From a virus: 20,179 bases of DNA. Positions 515 through 19,565 of the stretch are shown piece after piece; within the stretch, counting starts at the first letter, position 1, and every line of letters starts with the position of its first letter. The DNA lies in the IMG/VR virus record IMGVR_UViG_3300032087_002569, positions 1-20,179 of that record; one strand, 5' to 3'. The translations under genes were made by a program, and so were the position numbers. The notes under the pieces were generated by a model, which saw only the letters and a list, made by a program, of their open reading frames with translations, did not search any database and had not been told where the DNA came from.

Positions 515-2894
515 AGATCGCTTCAAATTCCAAAGATACGAGGGACGAGGGGAAAGGTGAGTCGTTAAGAACGGAGATATTAACTTGGTCGTTTTTCGCG
601 TATACGGGAAAACGGAAAACCCCATCTTGGATAGAATCAGTTTGACTGCCCAAGACGGCAGTTCCGGTTCCGATGGATCGTCCGTTGTAGACATAATCAA
701 AAGTGTCTCTGTTTTCAGGAGTCACCTGAACCTTAAAGTATCGACTATCGTTGAACACCAGTACCCCGTGCCTTAGCTGGTAGCGACCCTGAGCCACCAT
801 AGTCTGTCCTCTGCCACTGGCACTAGGTGCGCGGAGCTGAGGCCGAGAGACATCATAGGTCATGGTATAGGGAACCCCGATGAACACTGGTTGGTTGGTG
901 TAGTTCCCATTGACCACTAAGGAAGTGCCCGACTTAGAATCCACATCCAGCAGAACGCCCTCTGGCAGCTTCCGCTCTACGGTTCCCTGAGGGTTAGTCC
1001 CAATAACATTCTGGTTACTCCCTGCATCTGCATGAGGCCGGGACACAATCTGGATTGTATCGTTGTCTACGTTGTAAGGGCTAGTAAACGTAGTGGTGTC
1101 ATCAGCGGAGCTGTAGGTTCCCCCAGATAGCTCTGCTCGGCGGTCTAGCAGAGTCACATACTCACTACCAGTGTCCTGCTGACCTGCCTCAATATCCATC
1201 GACTCCAGATAAACACCATCACTGCGCTCGATCACCACATACAAAGTGGAGTCAATGAAGTCGGTGTTTAAGACAGTTGTTCCAGAGCCGAAGTCGAACT
1301 TAAACCAAGCTGATTGGAGTTTGTCAGAGCCGTTAAAAAAGTATTTGTAGACGTAGACTCCATTAGTGAAGCCATCGGTCTGTGCAACAAGGATTTGCTC
1401 ATTATCCGCAGCCGTGATCTGGGTCAGGTTTCCGCTGAGATACTTAGGAACTTGGGCAGTTATGTCAGCCCCATCGAAGAACTGGGTGTCAGGGTTAATA
1501 AAATACTCCTGAACACCACTGAACTCATTGCGCGGAAACCCAAAGTATACGTTTCTACCCACTGCTACAGGGTCAGCCGTAGTGGAGACTGTGTAAGCTG
1601 TGGACTGCTGGATTGACACGGTTTTAGGCGTGAGAAGGTCAGCAGCCTGTAGAGTGAACTGAGTCTGGTCAGCAAACAGCACAAGGCGGTCATAGAAAGG
1701 AACCGCAGCAAACAACACGCTAACCTTGGTCGAACTCGTACCAATATCAATCATGTCCGAGTCAAGGAGCTGTGTGACTGTAGTGCGCCAGAAGTTAAAG
1801 TATTCGGAGGCTTCGCTAAAGATGACATTCTCATCCGCTACAAAACCAAGACGGTTCTTAAAGAAGAATACGTCTTTGATTTTCTTCCCTACAAAGGAAG
1901 CTGTGGGGTTGGTATCATCATCCCCTACCAAGCGGTAGGCCCAAGTAGCTTGCTCAAAAGTAAACGTCCCGTCTGCATTACGGACAAGCTGGTGAGGCAT
2001 CAGAGTAGCATCATACTCCTTATCAATGCCCGGAGCTGCTGTTTCCTCCCACTGACCTGAGCCTCCGGTTCCATCGTCAGCTACAAACTTAACCCAGTAT
2101 TCGTCTCCAGCCTCCTCTGGGTCTCCTACTACCTTAATGATGTAGCCGTGCTTATGCTCAACAGGGAGGTCAGCAAAGTTCTGCACTGACCCAGTGACGT
2201 TCTTAATGAAGTCTCCAGCTTTTGAGTCCTCTACTGAGCAAGTAAAGGCAGCAGCGTCATTGCGAACGATATGTAGCGTAGCTCCGTATTCTGTAACGGT
2301 GTAGGTTCCTGAGGGAATGTTTCCAGCTAAGTTACCCGCAATGTAAGTCGGCTGAGTGTGTTGTGCGCTAGACGACCCTGCGGTGTAGCTATAAGCAGTG
2401 CCGTCTAATACGACCTTGTAAGTCACTTCATAGTCACCCTGAGAAATAAACACAGAGGCTTCTTCGCCTTGCGTAGTTGTCTGAGCTGAACCTACAGCTA
2501 CCGTCTTGGTCTTATTAAGGACAAACGTGTAGTCAGCTACGGTCAGGCACTTGATGTCTGAGTTAGGGGTGGTGGTTGTTATGTATCCTACCCCGTCAGG
2601 AGTGGTTACAGTTTTCTCAGTCCCGTTAATGTCAAAAACCTTGACTGAGTTGTTCTGAAAGATAACCACATACCTCTCATTTAAGTCCCTGTTAATAGTG
2701 TGGACTTTGGTATCCCCTACGCTCCCCGAGATAAGCTGAGAGATGTGCTTGAGGGGAGGACGTTTAATAAGCCCCTCCACCAAAGAACTGTACCCATTGA
2801 TCTGTTCTTCAGATTGAGAACCATACCGGAGTCCATCAGCTTGCTGACTAACACCAGATACTAGGTTCGGGATGGAGGTGGATATTAAGGACAT
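486..2894 (-). CDS. tail tubular protein B / nozzle (T7 gp12-like)
   Basis: An 802-residue tail protein (T7 gp12 is 794 aa) that forms the hexameric nozzle of the short tail. The N-terminus TSIPNLVSGVSQQADGLRYG followed by EEQINGYSSLVEGLIKRPP is the family signature. The central segments KNRLGFVADENVIFSEASEY and FNFWRTTVTQLLDSDMIDIG and the C-terminal GRYQLRHGVLVFNDSRYFKV segment also fit. The start overlaps the gp11-like stop by one base (TAATG). The C-terminus (AVRNRRYN) overlaps the gp13-like gene by 29 bases in another frame. Nothing unusual is seen in its length or composition. Confidence 0.96.
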   Translation of the reverse strand: MSLISTSIPNLVSGVSQQADGLRYGSQSEEQINGYSSLVEGLIKRPPLKHISQLISGSVGDTKVHTINRDLNERYVVIFQNNSVKVFDINGTEKTVTTPDGVGYITTTTPNSDIKCLTVADYTFVLNKTKTVAVGSAQTTTQGEEASVFISQGDYEVTYKVVLDGTAYSYTAGSSSAQHTQPTYIAGNLAGNIPSGTYTVTEYGATLHIVRNDAAAFTCSVEDSKAGDFIKNVTGSVQNFADLPVEHKHGYIIKVVGDPEEAGDEYWVKFVADDGTGGSGQWEETAAPGIDKEYDATLMPHQLVRNADGTFTFEQATWAYRLVGDDDTNPTASFVGKKIKDVFFFKNRLGFVADENVIFSEASEYFNFWRTTVTQLLDSDMIDIGTSSTKVSVLFAAVPFYDRLVLFADQTQFTLQAADLLTPKTVSIQQSTAYTVSTTADPVAVGRNVYFGFPRNEFSGVQEYFINPDTQFFDGADITAQVPKYLSGNLTQITAADNEQILVAQTDGFTNGVYVYKYFFNGSDKLQSAWFKFDFGSGTTVLNTDFIDSTLYVVIERSDGVYLESMDIEAGQQDTGSEYVTLLDRRAELSGGTYSSADDTTTFTSPYNVDNDTIQIVSRPHADAGSNQNVIGTNPQGTVERKLPEGVLLDVDSKSGTSLVVNGNYTNQPVFIGVPYTMTYDVSRPQLRAPSASGRGQTMVAQGRYQLRHGVLVFNDSRYFKVQVTPENRDTFDYVYNGRSIGTGTAVLGSQTDSIQDGVFRFPVYAKNDQVNISVLNDSPFPSSLVSLEFEAIYAVRNRRYN

Positions 2895-3472
2895 TAGCGA
2901 TTGATGACGTTGTAGGCGTCCAGATTATCAAAGATGGTATAATCGGCGGTTTCATCATCGTAGTCCTTTAGAGTGGCTAGAGCGGTAGCTTCGTCAGCCG
3001 CCAGCACCCTCAATAGGTCTTGAGAACCCACCACACGGTCTTGGAAAATGCGACTAGCCCGAACAGTAATGTAGTTGCGAGCAGGTTGGGGAAGGTTAGT
3101 AAACTCAAGAAGAAGGACGATTTCCCCCTTCAGGTCTTGTGTAAATACAAATGAATGTTCTTTGCGGTCATACATTTTGTTCCCGCGCTGAACAACGTCT
3201 AAAGTCGGATACAGCTCCGTCTTGATGTCGAACCGAACAGCCGTAGCAGGTAGGTTGATGTGGCCATTACCGTCTTTAGTGATGGTATATTCAGGCTCAG
3301 TGTTAAAGTGCCACCCTCGGGACTGCACATCCCGGCTCACTTCATCAAGGATTTGCTTGGCTACCCGAGCGTCTGCTGTAGTCGCTGTATCGAGCTGATT
3401 GATCGGGGCTTCCCCAATCGCAGACAGCATTTGGTTAACGGCTTCGAGTTCGGTGCTTAGTGTAAGACTCAT
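2894..3472 (-). CDS. tail tubular protein A (T7 gp11-like)
   Basis: A 192-residue protein (T7 gp11 is 196 aa) that forms the adaptor ring under the portal. Typical features are the start SLTLSTELEAVNQMLSAIGE followed by APINQLD, then a conserved VQSRGWHFNTEP segment, RNYITVRASRIFQDRVVGS, and LATLKDYDDETADYTIFDN at the C-terminus. The ribosome-binding site is poor (AAAGTTGAAAT), which with the upstream terminator suggests modest expression. The stop and the next start share an A in TAATG, so tail protein B is probably coupled to it. Confidence 0.95.
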   Translation of the reverse strand: MSLTLSTELEAVNQMLSAIGEAPINQLDTATTADARVAKQILDEVSRDVQSRGWHFNTEPEYTITKDGNGHINLPATAVRFDIKTELYPTLDVVQRGNKMYDRKEHSFVFTQDLKGEIVLLLEFTNLPQPARNYITVRASRIFQDRVVGSQDLLRVLAADEATALATLKDYDDETADYTIFDNLDAYNVINR

Positions 3473-8814: not shown

Positions 8815-9539
8815 AGGATGACTTCTTTCTTCTTATGGTTGTAGTCAGTGTTCCTAAGGATGCGGGCCAACCTAGCTTGGGACAGGGCATAGTCCTCACC
8901 AAACCCCGCTTTCTCATAGGCAACCAAGATGGCTGACCAATAGTCCTCGGCATCCTCAAGTATCTTTGCAGCCCGTTTTGGGCCAATACCCGGACAACCT
9001 GCATAGCCGTCTGTAGCGTCCCCAGTTAGGCACTGGAGGTAGAAGTTGTAGTCAGCATCCTCTGGCTCAACATCGAACACCCCAATATCTGTGTTCCAGT
9101 TAAAGTGGAGTCCGGGGATGGTGGCGAAGTCCTTATCAATCGAGGCCATCACACACTCACCCTTGCGCTTCTTGGTAGCTGCAATGCCAATCGCATCGTC
9201 AGCTTCAAGGTTGTCCACTGACTTGGCTCCCAGCTCATCGCGCATCCACTGGAGAATTTCACCAAGGATCACAGGCTTACGCTTGTCTGCACGGTTGGAT
9301 TTGTAGGATGAATCCACCTGAGTCTTACGAAAGTTATTAGAGTCGCTAAGGAATATCTCTACAGAGGTTCCCTCGGTTCTGTCCTTGAGCCACTCGATCC
9401 AGTTCACTAAGTGAGCCTTAGCTTCCTTAGCGTCAGCGTGGAGTGTCCACAAGTCATCTCCCCAGTTTACAGGTGTCTCTACCTGTGTGGCGTGTTGGTA
9501 GGCGACTATATCGCCATCAATTAGTATTGTCCTTTGCAT
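8799..9539 (-). CDS. 5'-3' exonuclease (T7 gp6-like, FEN/PIN fold)
   Basis: A 246-residue nuclease (T7 gp6 is 300 aa) that degrades host DNA and removes RNA primers. Metal-binding acidic residues typical of the fold are visible: Asp8/Asp10 (ILIDGDIVAY), Glu112, Asp114 and Asp115 (NLEADDAIG), Asp135 and Asp137 (ASIDKDFATIPG), and the GDATDG segment at 173-178. These are followed by a helix-hairpin-helix GCPGIGPKRA at 181-190 that holds the DNA backbone. The 5' end overlaps the LAGLIDADG gene by 23 bases and its own ribosome-binding site is weak (AAAGAAAG). Its 3' end overlaps the DUF4406-like gene by 16 bases. Confidence 0.95.
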   Translation of the reverse strand: MQRTILIDGDIVAYQHATQVETPVNWGDDLWTLHADAKEAKAHLVNWIEWLKDRTEGTSVEIFLSDSNNFRKTQVDSSYKSNRADKRKPVILGEILQWMRDELGAKSVDNLEADDAIGIAATKKRKGECVMASIDKDFATIPGLHFNWNTDIGVFDVEPEDADYNFYLQCLTGDATDGYAGCPGIGPKRAAKILEDAEDYWSAILVAYEKAGFGEDYALSQARLARILRNTDYNHKKKEVILWTPN

Positions 9540-9927
9540 GATAATTAACTTTCTTTAAAGCTGCTATTTGTGCTCGAATCTCTGCCTTTTCGTCTTTGTC
9601 CACTGCATCGTAGTAGGTGAGAGCTAGTTTTATCTGAGGGCGTTTCTCAACAGAGTAGGGGAAGATTAGGTGCAAAAACCGTAAAGCCTCCATCCCGTGT
9701 AGTACCCAACGAGAGTAGTCCCTAGCGTTTGGTCGGTCTCTGTAAGTCCCGTCAGATGTTCTACCTCCAAAAGCCTCATCCAGCCTGTTGATTGAACGAG
9801 GGCAGCAGGAGTTGATGGAGACTCTGAGCGAGTACCTGTTGAAGTTGACACAACCCTCGCCGTCAAAGTATCCAGCGAAGTAAGCTATCTCCGTTTCATT
9901 GAGCGGTTTTGTCCTTGTTGTTCCCAT
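9517..9927 (-). CDS. LAGLIDADG homing endonuclease, single motif
   Basis: A 136-residue protein starting MGTTRTKPLNETEIAYFAGY. The segment YFAGYFDGEGCV (about residues 15-26) is a clear LAGLIDADG motif with the catalytic acidic residue in DGEG. Only one motif is present, so it should act as a homodimer on a near-palindromic target. Small free-standing enzymes of this type spread by cutting alleles that lack them. It lies between DNA polymerase (13-base gap) and exonuclease, whose start it overlaps by 23 bases. The ATG at 9927 is chosen for AAAGGAACTGG just upstream; the frame is open to 10020 inside the polymerase gene, but without a comparable site. Its last seven residues are encoded by the exonuclease start region, suggesting coupled translation. 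Confidence 0.85.
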   Translation of the reverse strand: MGTTRTKPLNETEIAYFAGYFDGEGCVNFNRYSLRVSINSCCPRSINRLDEAFGGRTSDGTYRDRPNARDYSRWVLHGMEALRFLHLIFPYSVEKRPQIKLALTYYDAVDKDEKAEIRAQIAALKKVNYHAKDNTN

Positions 9928-9940
9928 CCAGTTCCTTTCA

Positions 9941-11818
9941 TTAGTGTGTTTCAGACCAGTTCTGGCCCACCTTGTATTCCCCATCCAATCGACACCGGAA
10001 GTTAAATGAACGTCCTGCATCCTGAATGGCCTTCACGGCTAACTGCCCCACAGTGTCAGCCTTATCTTTATCTACCTCCAACTGCATCTCATCGTGGATG
10101 TGACCCACAAGTGCATAATCTCGGGCAAAGCTCCATCCCTTAACTTCCAGATAGCGGTTAAGCAGCACGGTAGCCTGTTTCATAATCAACGCCCCTGCAC
10201 TCTGTAGAAGAGTGTTCAAAGCGGCGTGTGAGCTTCGGATAGGAAGCTGCCTTCCATCCAGACCGACAAGATAGCCTCGGGCGTCTACGGCTTGTTCAAC
10301 CGCCTCACGTAGCTTTTTAAGGGCAGGAGTCTTATCAAGGAACTCCTTCTTAATGCTCTTCCCCTCGGCCTGTCCTTTACCAATGATCTTACCAATCTTT
10401 TCGTCACCCGCTCCGTATAGGAAGGCGTAGATAAACGTCTTGGCGTTATCCCTTGTCGGAAGCCCAGCGGCCTTTTGGTTCGCCGTATGGATGTCCTCTT
10501 CAAGCAAGATTTTGGCATAGGCTCCACCATCATATCTCGCCATGTAGTGCGCCAAGCAACGAAGCTCCAATCCGCTCGCATCGCATCCAACAAGTTTTTT
10601 CCCTTCTCCAACAGTGAACAGTTCACGACATTCCTTTCCATACGGTGAGCCAGCGTTAGGTACTTGCGCTAGGTTTGGTTTGCTGTGAGTGCAACGGCCC
10701 GTCACCGCTCCGTTCGTTGTCACCCGTCCGTGCAGACGCCCATCTGCTTTGACTAATTTGAGCCAAGCCTCGTTGCCTTCAGCAAGTTGGCCTAGCCGTT
10801 TCTGAATCATTAGGTACTCAAGAAGAGGCCCAGCCTCCTCATAGCCGTCCTTGGCTAACTCCTTCAGTATAGGCTCATCCACCCTAGCCCGTCCGTCAGG
10901 AGTGAAGTCGGTTGGCTTCCAGCCCCTCTGCATAAACCGCTTGGCTATCTGGTCACGGCTTCCGGGGTTGAAAGGAATCTTCTTCTTCAGAGGCTCTCCC
11001 TTCTCAATCTTTGCCAAAGCCTCTTTCTGGGTTGTCTTATTCTCTTTAGCCCAAGCCTTAGCCGCTGTGGTCGCCTCTGCCTTGGTTCGGTAAGTCTCCC
11101 CGTTGAAGTTCCATTTGGTTTTCTTCATCGTCTCCACCTCAGGCTGGAACACCTTCTGAAGCCTGTCCTCAATCTCAGCTCGCTTGGTGGTGAGATCAGC
11201 AACTAGCTCCATTGCCTTGGGCTGATCTAAGAGAAACCCATGCCGTTCCTGCTGCTCGATGATAGAGCCAAACTTATGCTCCAACTCGATAGCAGGTTCA
11301 GCGTACTTCTTCTGCTCGATAGCCTTCCAGAGTTTGAGTGTCACCTTAACGTCCTGAACGCAGTAATCCTGCATCTCCTGACTCCACTCATCGAAGTTGT
11401 TGTTCTCCTTGAAGTCGCCTTTGAGAAGCCCGATGCGGTATCCCCAAGCCTTCAGACTGTGAGAGCCTATAAGGTTCTTGGGGAAGTCTGGAGCTGAGTT
11501 AAGTCTACCGAAGTCTCTCTCCTTCAGGTCAGGCCAGATAAGCCTAGTCAGTAGAATGGTATCCCTGACTACACCCTTTGGATACCAGCTCGGGAACAGC
11601 TTTCGGATAACAGGGATGTCAAAGCCGACGATGTTATGTCCCACGATAGTGTCAGCATTCTGTAACATCGCCAGCCCTTCCTGTATCCCTCGGCCCTCTG
11701 GCTGGTCATTAAACTCATACATCCTCCCCGCCATAAGGTCGGCTATGCAGATGCAGTGAATCTGCGTTGTCTTGTCGAGGAGTCCGTCCGACTCAAGATC
11801 AAATATCAGTGTTCTCAT
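9941..11818 (-). CDS. family A DNA polymerase with 3'-5' exonuclease (T7 gp5-like)
   Basis: A 625-residue replicative polymerase, shorter than T7 gp5 (704 aa). The N-terminal proofreading domain has Asp7/Glu9 (FDLES), Asp67 (HNIVGFD) and Asp156 (YCVQD). The polymerase domain has motif A around Asp413 (CDASGLELRCLAHYMAR), motif B with Lys460, Tyr464 and Tyr468 (NAKTFIYAFLYGAGDEK), and motif C His575-Asp576-Glu577. The position equal to E. coli Pol I Phe762 is Tyr464, as in T7. Where T7 has its thioredoxin-binding loop, this protein has a Lys/Ala-rich, probably helical segment at about 231-280, and the T7 insert around KWKRRWIK is absent. It overlaps the small ORF upstream by 20 bases and is followed 13 bases later by a LAGLIDADG gene. 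Confidence 0.97.
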   Translation of the reverse strand: MRTLIFDLESDGLLDKTTQIHCICIADLMAGRMYEFNDQPEGRGIQEGLAMLQNADTIVGHNIVGFDIPVIRKLFPSWYPKGVVRDTILLTRLIWPDLKERDFGRLNSAPDFPKNLIGSHSLKAWGYRIGLLKGDFKENNNFDEWSQEMQDYCVQDVKVTLKLWKAIEQKKYAEPAIELEHKFGSIIEQQERHGFLLDQPKAMELVADLTTKRAEIEDRLQKVFQPEVETMKKTKWNFNGETYRTKAEATTAAKAWAKENKTTQKEALAKIEKGEPLKKKIPFNPGSRDQIAKRFMQRGWKPTDFTPDGRARVDEPILKELAKDGYEEAGPLLEYLMIQKRLGQLAEGNEAWLKLVKADGRLHGRVTTNGAVTGRCTHSKPNLAQVPNAGSPYGKECRELFTVGEGKKLVGCDASGLELRCLAHYMARYDGGAYAKILLEEDIHTANQKAAGLPTRDNAKTFIYAFLYGAGDEKIGKIIGKGQAEGKSIKKEFLDKTPALKKLREAVEQAVDARGYLVGLDGRQLPIRSSHAALNTLLQSAGALIMKQATVLLNRYLEVKGWSFARDYALVGHIHDEMQLEVDKDKADTVGQLAVKAIQDAGRSFNFRCRLDGEYKVGQNWSETH

Positions 11819-17184: not shown

Positions 17185-17272
17185 TGGTGCGAGCGAAGGG
17201 ACTCGAACCCTTACACCCTTGTCGGATAACGGGTTTTAAGCCCGTTGCGTCTACCTATTCCGCCACGCTCGC
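17185..17272 (-). tRNA. tRNA-Leu(UAA), complete, CCA encoded; candidate attP core
   Basis: The minus strand folds into a full class II tRNA. The acceptor stem GCGAGCG pairs with CGCTCGC. The D arm contains GCGGAATAGGTAGACGC. The anticodon stem ACGGG/CCCGT holds the loop CTTAAAA (anticodon TAA). A long variable arm (ATCC/GGGT stem) follows, then a T arm AAGGG-TTCGAGT-CCCTT, discriminator A and encoded CCA. All stems are intact, so it could be functional. Leucine tRNA genes are known integration targets for T7-like marine phages (P-SSP7 carries a 42-bp match to a host tRNA-Leu). With an integrase 1.3 kb away, this is the likely attachment site. A complete gene rather than only a 3' fragment means it could replace the host tRNA or serve translation during infection. 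Confidence 0.93.
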
Positions 17273-17329: not shown

Positions 17330-17704
17330 TTAGTCTATTCTGTCCAGCTCTCGCTCGACTTTGACCCAATACTTTTCTGTGGCTTTCTTCCGGTGGCCTG
17401 TAGGCCCACCATTCCACATCCGAGCAGCGTCCTCGAAGGTTGGCTTGCGTCCGAGTCGCCTCTCGGTGCAGTAGATTTTCATGTAGGCTCGGCAGATGGT
17501 CTTTGCCTTTTCTCTGTCGTAGCAATCGTCAGGGAACTTAAACTGTCCCTGCTTGCGAGCTTTGCGGAAGCGGTTCACATCTTCCACTACTGCTGCTCCG
17601 ATCTGGAGAGGGCCATGACTAGCCCCACCATCTCCCACTGCGTTGTCATTCCCACTCGACTCTACTGCAATGAGAGCGGCAAGGAATTTAGCTGTTATTA
17701 TCAT
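17330..17704 (-). CDS. lysozyme / lytic-transglycosylase-like endolysin
   Basis: A 124-residue protein with the hallmarks of a small SLT/goose-type lysozyme fold: a catalytic glutamate in LIAVESSGN (Glu15), the following substrate-site signature HGPLQIG (about residues 30-36), and a late MWNGGP motif (about 96-101). It probably cleaves the glycan strands of peptidoglycan at lysis. There is no clear signal peptide: the N-terminal MIITAKFLAALIAV runs straight into the active-site Glu and is better read as the first core helix. Export would then rely on the holin-like protein at 5075-5281. It sits 14 bases after the HNH gene and ahead of the tRNA, unlike T7, whose amidase-type lysozyme (gp3.5) lies after endonuclease I. 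A role in virion entry is an alternative. Confidence 0.8.
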   Translation of the reverse strand: MIITAKFLAALIAVESSGNDNAVGDGGASHGPLQIGAAVVEDVNRFRKARKQGQFKFPDDCYDREKAKTICRAYMKIYCTERRLGRKPTFEDAARMWNGGPTGHRKKATEKYWVKVERELDRID

Positions 17705-17718
17705 TAGTGTTGTGTCTC

Positions 17719-18528
17719 CTAGTTAGTTAGTTGGTGTTGTTTTAGTAGTTTCTTGGTCTCTTTAGCTAAAGCGTTGTCCGCCCATTTGCCTCCGAGGGAT
17801 GGATCGTAGGAAGCTCTTTTGCTACTGTTCTCGTGAATTGTAATCACTCTCAAGTTGTCTTGATGGTGTGCTCCGCCAAGGAACAAAGGTATAATGTGGT
17901 CAACGTGATGCTGTACCCCTGAGAGTTTGGTGGCCTTGCGTTGCAGCTCATCGAACTGGGCCATCTCATCTTCACAGCTATCTGGTAGGTACGCATCGTA
18001 CATCAATGCCCTTCTGTGCCAGCTTTTACGCAATCCTTCTGACTTCCCCTCGTCAGTTTTGCTCCGCTCCCTAGCACGAACATTTCGGATAGGGCGTTCA
18101 GCTACTTTTCTACATTCCTTGCTGCAATACTTAGAACAATTCGCGCCCATAAACTCTTTTGAACAGTGCTGGCAGACCTTTTTATGATTGTAGTATCCTT
18201 TTCGAAGACTCGTTCTCTTCGCTTCGTATTTCCCCCTGTTAGCTTTGTCCCAATTTATCTTTCTGATCTCACCGCACTTTTTACATCTGGGCCTCCTTGG
18301 GTCAGCTATAAAGTTTCGTCCACAATCAGGGCATTCTCTTTTAATTTTCTTAAACTTTCCGGGGATAAAGTCAGGATTTCTTCGGGCTTCCCTGTATTGC
18401 TTGTTGTATTCCTTTGCATATCTCTTGACACACGGCTCACATCTTTTTCTGGAAGCGTACCCAAAGAAAACCTCGCCGCAGTCAATGCAAGTAATATCTC
18501 GATACTTTGCTTTTCTCCCCTTCTTCAC
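17719..18528 (-). CDS. HNH homing-type endonuclease with multiple zinc ribbons
   Basis: A 269-residue basic protein. The N-terminal half holds three Cys-pair modules, at about residues 14-34 (CIDC...CEPC), 65-84 (CPDC...CKKC) and 118-139 (CQHC...CSKEC), followed by a C-terminal HNH nuclease motif around residues 207-240: HHVDHIIPLFLGG, then NLRVI and NSSK. The architecture fits a free-standing phage HNH endonuclease that nicks or cuts DNA and spreads by homing. It begins with GTG behind GGGAG at a short 3-base spacing. It lies between the integrase and the lysozyme-like gene and is bracketed by a perfect 20-bp direct repeat, which marks it as a probable recent insertion. The target site is unknown; cleavage near the integrase/lysozyme junction of uninserted relatives would be the natural expectation for a homing enzyme. 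Confidence 0.9.
   Translation of the reverse strand: MKKGRKAKYRDITCIDCGEVFFGYASRKRCEPCVKRYAKEYNKQYREARRNPDFIPGKFKKIKRECPDCGRNFIADPRRPRCKKCGEIRKINWDKANRGKYEAKRTSLRKGYYNHKKVCQHCSKEFMGANCSKYCSKECRKVAERPIRNVRARERSKTDEGKSEGLRKSWHRRALMYDAYLPDSCEDEMAQFDELQRKATKLSGVQHHVDHIIPLFLGGAHHQDNLRVITIHENSSKRASYDPSLGGKWADNALAKETKKLLKQHQLTN
17722..17741. repeat. 20-bp direct repeat, copy 2 (HNH gene 3' end)
   Basis: Identical to the 20 bases at 18548-18567, but read here in a different frame as the last residues of the HNH protein (ending QLTN then TAG). After it come AGGAG and the start of the lysozyme-like gene. After the other copy come a few bases of CAA repeats and GGGAGACA, so a GGAGACA ribosome-site segment also recurs after each copy. 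Confidence 0.9.
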
Positions 18529-18547
18529 TGTCTCCCTTTTTGTTGTT

Positions 18548-18567
18548 GTTAGTTAGTTGGTGTTGTT
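18548..18567. repeat. 20-bp direct repeat, copy 1 (integrase 3' end)
   Basis: On the minus strand this reads AACAACACCAACTAACTAAC and encodes the last residues and the TAA stop of the integrase. An identical copy lies 826 bp away at 17722-17741. The two copies bracket the HNH endonuclease gene. Confidence 0.9.
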
Positions 18568-19565
18568 GCTTCCAGACGCTTCTCCTCCAATTTGATAATG
18601 GCGTCTGAGAGATTCTTTGGTGCGAGGTGGGCATACCTCATGGTGACTTGGATTGACTTGTGTCCAAGCAACTCCTTTACATCAAGCAGGGGAATCCCGG
18701 CTTGAACCATGCGTGATGCACAAGTGTGCCTTAGGCAGTGGGGAACGTATTGGGTGTCCTTGGTGAACCCGAGGAGTCCCCGGACATAGTTCCAGACATG
18801 GTTAAAGCTGGTCTGCTTGACGTTGGCGAAGGGACTCTCTAGGCTCAGCGTTTGCCGTGATTGTAGAATGTCTTGCACACGGCTGGTCATAGGGACTGAC
18901 CGAGGCTCATCGTTCTTCGTTTTCCAGATCGTGATGAGGCCGTTCTCTACGTCCTTCCATTCGAGGGCAAGAGCCTCCCCCACCCTCATGCCAGTATCCA
19001 CCAGCACAAGGGTGAGGTCGGCCATATCGTTGCGAGCGAGATCGCGGAATTTTGCAACGAGTTCATCCTCCTCGGCGTAGGTGAGCCAACGGATGCGTCC
19101 CTTTGGCTCCTTCTTACGCTCAATCTTTGGCATACCCCGCAGCCATCCACGCTCATGCCCGAAGCGGAGCATCTTGCTCAGAGCTGCCAGCTTCCGGTTA
19201 ATGGTGGCATTGGAGTTGCCCATGTCCTCTAGTGACATGATAAAGGTATCAATCTGCTCAGGCATCACATCCTCTAGTGGATTGGATGAGCCAAAGAAAT
19301 TAACCACCAGCTCTGCGTTAAGCCGTAAGGTTTTTTCAGCTTTCGCGTCCTTCCAGTAGCGATTGTAAGTGGCCTCTAATAAGTCACCCCAAGTCCGGTT
19401 TCCAGCCGAGCTAATGGACTCTACAGGCTTACCTTTGGCTAACGCTGCCTTGGTTTGGTACACGAAGTCCTCAGCCTCCTGCTTGCTTTGGAACTGTCTA
19501 CGGATACGCTTGCCCTTGTAATGGACAGCCGCTTGAAATGAATTGCCTCTTTGGTTAACGCTCAC
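18549..19565 (-). CDS. int: tyrosine recombinase / phage integrase
   Basis: A 338-residue tyrosine-family site-specific recombinase expected to catalyse recombination between the phage attP and host attB sites. The N-terminal part (residues about 5-45) resembles the arm-binding three-stranded domain, residues about 58-145 the core-binding SAM-like domain, and 160-338 the catalytic domain. All expected active-site residues are visible: Arg194 (DTGMRVGEAL), Lys215 or Lys217 in the beta-hairpin, His276 and Arg279 (HCLRH), His302 (LLGHKS) and the nucleophile Tyr311 (MRYAHL). It starts with GTG overlapping the previous stop by 4 bases, after a clear GAGGAG site 8 bases upstream. Its 3' end carries one copy of the 20-bp repeat that brackets the following HNH gene. 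With the tRNA-Leu 1.3 kb downstream it suggests a temperate or integrating lifestyle. Confidence 0.95.
   Translation of the reverse strand: MSVNQRGNSFQAAVHYKGKRIRRQFQSKQEAEDFVYQTKAALAKGKPVESISSAGNRTWGDLLEATYNRYWKDAKAEKTLRLNAELVVNFFGSSNPLEDVMPEQIDTFIMSLEDMGNSNATINRKLAALSKMLRFGHERGWLRGMPKIERKKEPKGRIRWLTYAEEDELVAKFRDLARNDMADLTLVLVDTGMRVGEALALEWKDVENGLITIWKTKNDEPRSVPMTSRVQDILQSRQTLSLESPFANVKQTSFNHVWNYVRGLLGFTKDTQYVPHCLRHTCASRMVQAGIPLLDVKELLGHKSIQVTMRYAHLAPKNLSDAIIKLEEKRLEATTPTN

Follow-up and report, generated by a model that had tools for sequence, protein, structure and literature searches.

An HNH endonuclease gene framed by copies of the integrase 3' end in a T7-like phage

How can an endonuclease gene enter a phage genome for the first time without harming the genes on either side? 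Free-standing endonuclease genes are common in phages, and this first entry is poorly documented. The question is raised by a locus in a virus record of 20,179 bases, the whole of which was analysed and is called the window below. It belongs to a T7-like phage coded on the minus strand, whose gene set comprises an integrase, an HNH gene, a lysozyme-like gene, a tRNA-Leu, a single-subunit RNA polymerase and endonuclease I; judged by their translations, a primase-helicase, a DNA polymerase, capsid genes and tail genes are also coded. Among annotated phages, the relatives of the integrase include those of the Autographiviridae Pseudomonas phage LUZ100 and Bordetella phage BB8. A DNA-level search of the annotated phage collection gave no match. 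The features of the locus are listed in Table 1.

Table 1. Features of the integrase-HNH-lysozyme locus and of the neighbouring tRNA gene (window coordinates)
Feature	Position	Strand	Evidence or remark
Tyrosine integrase gene	18549..19565	-	Pfam Phage_integrase E 2e-26; PHROG integrase; stop TAA inside left repeat copy
Repeat copy 1, AACAACACCAACTAACTAAC: final integrase codons and stop	18548..18567	-	exact sequence match
HNH leader AACAACAAAAAGGGAGACA with ribosome site	18529..18547	-	GGAGACA at 18529-18535
HNH / endonuclease VII-like gene, GTG start, 269 aa	17719..18528	-	PHROG matches; weak Pfam HNH
HNH catalytic motif HHVDHIIPLFLGGAHHQDNLRVITIHEN, residues 207-234	17827..17910	-	sequence; Pfam HNH residues 205-228
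Repeat copy 2: final HNH codons, other frame; putative original integrase-lysozyme junction	17722..17741	-	best window match to L002/L003 junctions
GGAGACA ribosome site of the lysozyme-like gene	17713..17719	-	sequence
Lysozyme/transglycosylase-like gene	17330..17704	-	Destabilase E 5e-5, below cut-off; SLT E 0.005
tRNA-Leu (TAA), possible attP	17185..17272	-	in HNH-bearing L028 too; absent from L002 and L003

The repeat and the gene between its copies

The first-pass annotation had claimed a 20-bp direct repeat on the minus strand, with one copy at the end of the integrase gene and the other at the end of the HNH gene. Both copies are exact and lie 826 bp apart, start to start. This is the longest exact direct repeat anywhere in the window, and none of 200 shuffled windows reached 20 bp (longest repeats of 17 and 19 bp for the 100 first-order and the 100 fourth-order Markov shuffles, respectively). 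Of some 410 random places sampled in related phage DNA, about 1% had an exact repeat of at least 19 bp within about 2.5 kb. No other place in the window matches the 20-mer with up to three mismatches (expected 0.00), and a search for the exact 20-mer in other phages found it only in this one.

The integrase frame passes through the repeat as ..ACA ACA CCA ACT AAC TAA and stops within it, while the HNH gene reads its copy in a different frame and ends at a TAG just after it. Thus the likeness of the two copies is at the level of DNA, not of protein. The GGAGACA said to follow each copy is real, these being two of its three occurrences in the window; by itself it is weak evidence, because a ribosome site of similar sequence, GGGAGAC, precedes another gene of this region. 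As read from the sequence, recombination between the copies would remove exactly the HNH gene and its leader, as had been proposed. The HNH gene being framed by identical 20-base copies of the integrase end, both of its neighbours stay intact.

A survey of integrase loci for a direct-repeat signature at integrase ends gave at most 10–12 bp, the background level, except here; a general signature of this kind was thus rejected. A literature search for HNH genes flanked by repeats brought up no example from a phage.

The protein coded between the copies matches the PHROG families endonuclease VII (E 7e-13) and HNH endonuclease (E 9e-13); its match to Pfam HNH (E 0.004) is below the cut-off. It has the HNH core HHVDHIIPL..GG..NL..N, and its N-terminal half carries zinc-ribbon-like Cys pairs. 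The structure predicted from the single sequence, with a pLDDT of 39, is uninformative. A PDB sequence search gave no match, and no close HNH relatives were found in GTDB genomes. The gene very probably codes for a free-standing homing-type endonuclease. The insert is a single ORF with an HNH motif, and a search for inverted repeats at its ends found none. A transposase gene and inverted terminal repeats, which would mark a transposon or insertion sequence with target-site duplication, are thus lacking.

The tRNA-Leu(TAA), near the integrase, may be attP. The copy in L028, an HNH-bearing relative, is identical to that of the window. As a clue to the host, the 3' 56 nt of this tRNA gave no exact match in GTDB genomes.

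Relatives with and without the HNH gene

Presence of the HNH gene varies among close relatives: it is found in the window, L026 and L028, and not in L002 and L003. The contig 3300032086_001821 (L001/L026) is the same phage, with 99.94% identity over 12.7 kb and both repeat copies present. L028 (contig 3300022934_000360) shows 94% DNA identity; it starts inside the HNH gene, so that the integrase end is missing from the contig, and at the HNH end it has the repeat in a 19-nt form, shorter by one base. Read in the integrase frame, this copy gives TTPTNN then TAG, much like the TTTTN then TAG of L002, and the TAG of L028 falls at the place of the L002 and L003 stop. At L028:440-500 the one-base difference in the repeat removes the HNH stop, and the frame would continue into the lysozyme start.

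The integrases of L002 and L003 are 97 and 96% identical to that of the window in amino acids, and in both phages the integrase leads straight into the lysozyme-like gene. The first-pass annotation had expected a single repeat copy and a direct integrase-lysozyme order in relatives lacking the HNH gene; this is largely what L002 and L003 display, with a single junction that carries an AAC-rich variant of the 20-mer. The sequence from integrase to lysozyme in L002 is GAAGC-AACAACAACAACAACAAACTAGGAACACA-..ATG. When the window is scanned with this junction, the top score, 21.5, falls on the HNH-end copy; the integrase-end copy follows with 18, and no other place exceeds 14.5. The best window match of the L003 junction is likewise the HNH-end copy. 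The stretch CTAGGA-ACACA, through which the lysozyme gene is reached, is also common to this copy and the L002 junction. As the best match to the HNH-free junctions, the HNH-end copy appears to be the old integrase-lysozyme junction, which places the HNH gene inside a duplicated integrase tail and junction. An alignment of the left leader AACAACAAAAAGGGAGACA with the L002 junction is also possible, and on that basis the duplication may span about 30 bp, with an internal length difference.

The HNH gene is rare at this place. Its motif follows the integrase in 4 of the 82 loci scanned (the phage of the window, L082, L088 and L091); in L109 a clearly related HNH gene starts at the same place, and the sequence ends before the motif. 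In the integrase outgroups (L004-L022, LUZ100 and BB8) no HNH gene lies between integrase and RNA polymerase. Absence from nearly all 82 loci and from the outgroups indicates that the HNH gene was gained.

A second lineage offers a comparable case. In L083 and L094, which are empty, 36 bases separate the integrase stop from the RNA polymerase start. In L082, L088 and L091 this interval holds an HNH gene of 216 aa, different from that of the window; compared with the empty L083 and L094, the integrase is 98–99% and the RNA polymerase 99% identical in DNA. L082:1802-2452 and the two empty relatives form a clean occupied/empty pair. The L082-type HNH gene overlaps the integrase at ATGA, and the last integrase codons read LEA, versus LERH in the empty relatives. 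The sequence behind this HNH gene, GTTTTTAAAGATTTGACAA, is modestly similar to the integrase tail GTTTTGGAAAGACATTGACAA; no other part of the insert matches that tail better (score 11 versus 8 for the next), which at most suggests that a remnant of the tail lies at the HNH 3' end. In both lineages the best PHROG match of the HNH protein is endonuclease VII.

Other genes also occur between the integrase and RNA polymerase genes: L089 (3356-4141) and L104 have a PAPS-reductase-like gene there, L110 (2381-3280) and L002 (4589-6013) a DNA methyltransferase. This interval is thus a hotspot for accessory genes, and the distribution of HNH genes suggests that in temperate T7-like phages entry occurs repeatedly at the integrase 3' end.

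Insertions and repeats were also seen elsewhere. L003 carries at 2432-3052 an extra gene of 206 aa, of unknown family, with a 10-bp repeat GAATGACTAC on each side, and its flanking genes lie next to each other in L002 and the window. Since this gain of a non-endonuclease gene is also bounded by GAATGACTAC, duplicated junctions are not confined to HNH genes. A second gene that resembles an endonuclease, with relatives in L049 and L050, lies at 9517-9927 of the window between those for DNA polymerase and exonuclease; its PHROG match is HNH, but by sequence it appears LAGLIDADG-like (Pfam LAGLIDADG_3 E 0.005, below the cut-off). At the start of this gene, the 3' end of the DNA polymerase gene is repeated imperfectly (83%; 9913-9930 / 9970-9987). 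Tandem TTTCTTTAACCG repeats occur upstream of early genes in L002 (near 2440-2490) and L003 (near 2010-2055), and none at the corresponding place in L001.

Origin of the locus

Taken together, we think it probable that a temperate T7-like phage acquired the HNH gene at the 3' end of its integrase gene, and that the insertion duplicated the old integrase-lysozyme junction. A free-standing gene, for which we predict a homing role, would have entered after a break at the integrase end, and illegitimate repair with misaligned ends, by template switching or microhomology, would have duplicated the junction. The left copy would complete the integrase, and the right copy would end the HNH frame and keep the lysozyme leader. 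Afterwards the gene would have spread by ordinary double-strand-break repair between homologous flanks, or simply been inherited. Joining at microhomology is described for one-sided illegitimate repair in T4 (PMC2988022), and the mycobacteriophage HNH insertions described are either precise or altered at the junction (PMC3706429). A repeat born of illegitimate repair would be a scar of acquisition rather than a recognition site; it could permit rare precise loss of the HNH gene. The earlier idea of a mobile-endonuclease footprint with a copied landing site holds in part: the HNH-free relatives and the outgroups give good support to the view that the gene was gained at the integrase 3' end and that the tail was duplicated. 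The 20-mer as a landing-site motif finds no support, since the exact form occurs in this phage only and the HNH-bearing L028 carries a variant of 19 nt.

The divergence of the downstream genes bears on how much came in. Nucleotide identity with L002 drops from 96% in the integrase to 74% in the lysozyme gene and mostly 65–77% in much of the RNA polymerase, with stretches of about 90% further on. It leaves unsupported the view that the HNH gene alone had moved, and it makes the main rival a block exchange in which the HNH gene, the lysozyme gene, the tRNA-Leu and the 5' part of the RNA polymerase gene entered together by recombination at the integrase 3' end, the repeat arising by unequal crossover in the AAC-rich tail. 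A methyltransferase in L002 and L003, where the window has the tRNA-Leu, is in line with such an exchange, and nuclease genes have been reported to lie where regions of genetic exchange end (PMC10448857). But the alignment of the HNH-end copy with the L002 junction through CTAGGA-ACACA means that an HNH-free integrase-lysozyme junction must have existed in this lineage or in the donor, and in the second lineage the HNH gene differs while both flanks remain 98–99% identical. A block exchange is a real rival, which we hold to be rather unlikely.

An ancestral HNH gene, lost from L002 and L003 by recombination between the repeats, would also leave their single junction; it appears improbable given the absence of the gene after the integrase in L004-L022, LUZ100, BB8 and nearly all surveyed loci, and the different lysozyme allele of L002 and L003. 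Another reading is that all leaders of the early region are AAC-rich with GGGAGAC ribosome sites and that the repeat arose by chance or convergence; AACAAC runs and GGGAGAC do occur in other leaders here. We give this very little weight, as the identity is 20/20 and includes the non-AAC part CCAACTAACTAAC, no other place in the window matches at up to three mismatches, and no shuffle reached 20 bp. That the repeats are recombinase sites, as integrase arm sites or an att pair, and the HNH gene a cassette excised site-specifically, is invited by the adjoining integrase gene and deserves practically no credit: the repeat differs in L028, and the lack of a third copy near the tRNA-Leu or elsewhere in the window led us to reject it as an att or arm site.

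Gain with a duplicated junction, the reading that we favour, may be taken one step further. Endonuclease VII-like HNH genes could repeatedly home to the integrase stop codon in temperate T7-like phages, each carrying its own integrase 3' end, as a phage counterpart of the fungal mitochondrial mORFs. We regard this extension as doubtful. If true, the carried integrase 3' end would let HNH genes enter a gene end harmlessly. In any case the locus and the empty/occupied pairs provide defined junctions for testing the step of first entry.

Comparison with known systems

As in the phage free-standing HNH homing genes described for T4 mob (PMC2988022) and Cluster J mycobacteriophages (PMC3706429), the HNH gene lies between conserved genes in the same orientation, leaves its flanks intact and varies in presence among close relatives. 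It differs from the insertions described there, which are precise or show a 35-bp loss at the junction, by the 20-bp duplicated gene end. F-CphI of cyanophage S-PM2 is also Endo VII-like, and is described as a homing enzyme of a marine phage (PMC6083498). It has an Endo VII motif, whereas the protein of the window has the HNH-type DHIIPL..GG..NL core, and the two are likened by description only.

The closest analogue is found in the mORFs, in which an endonuclease ORF bounded by copies of the end of the invaded gene proves a workable arrangement (PMC3630166). In both, an endonuclease ORF sits at the 3' end of a gene, a copy of the gene end stands on each side (20 bp for the integrase here) and the gene remains whole. 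The mORFs have longer, often diverged gene ends and code for LAGLIDADG or GIY-YIG enzymes (PMC3630166), while the locus of the window is a phage one, with 20 identical base pairs and an HNH enzyme. A gene end from a foreign donor, recognisable by diverged copies, was not found in the window; the LEA versus LERH integrase tail of L082 and its empty relatives at most suggests one there. The copies of the window being identical, the locus works like a mORF and is not classed as one. It is an HNH gene framed by a copied gene end, an unusually clean footprint of an already known kind of mobile gene.
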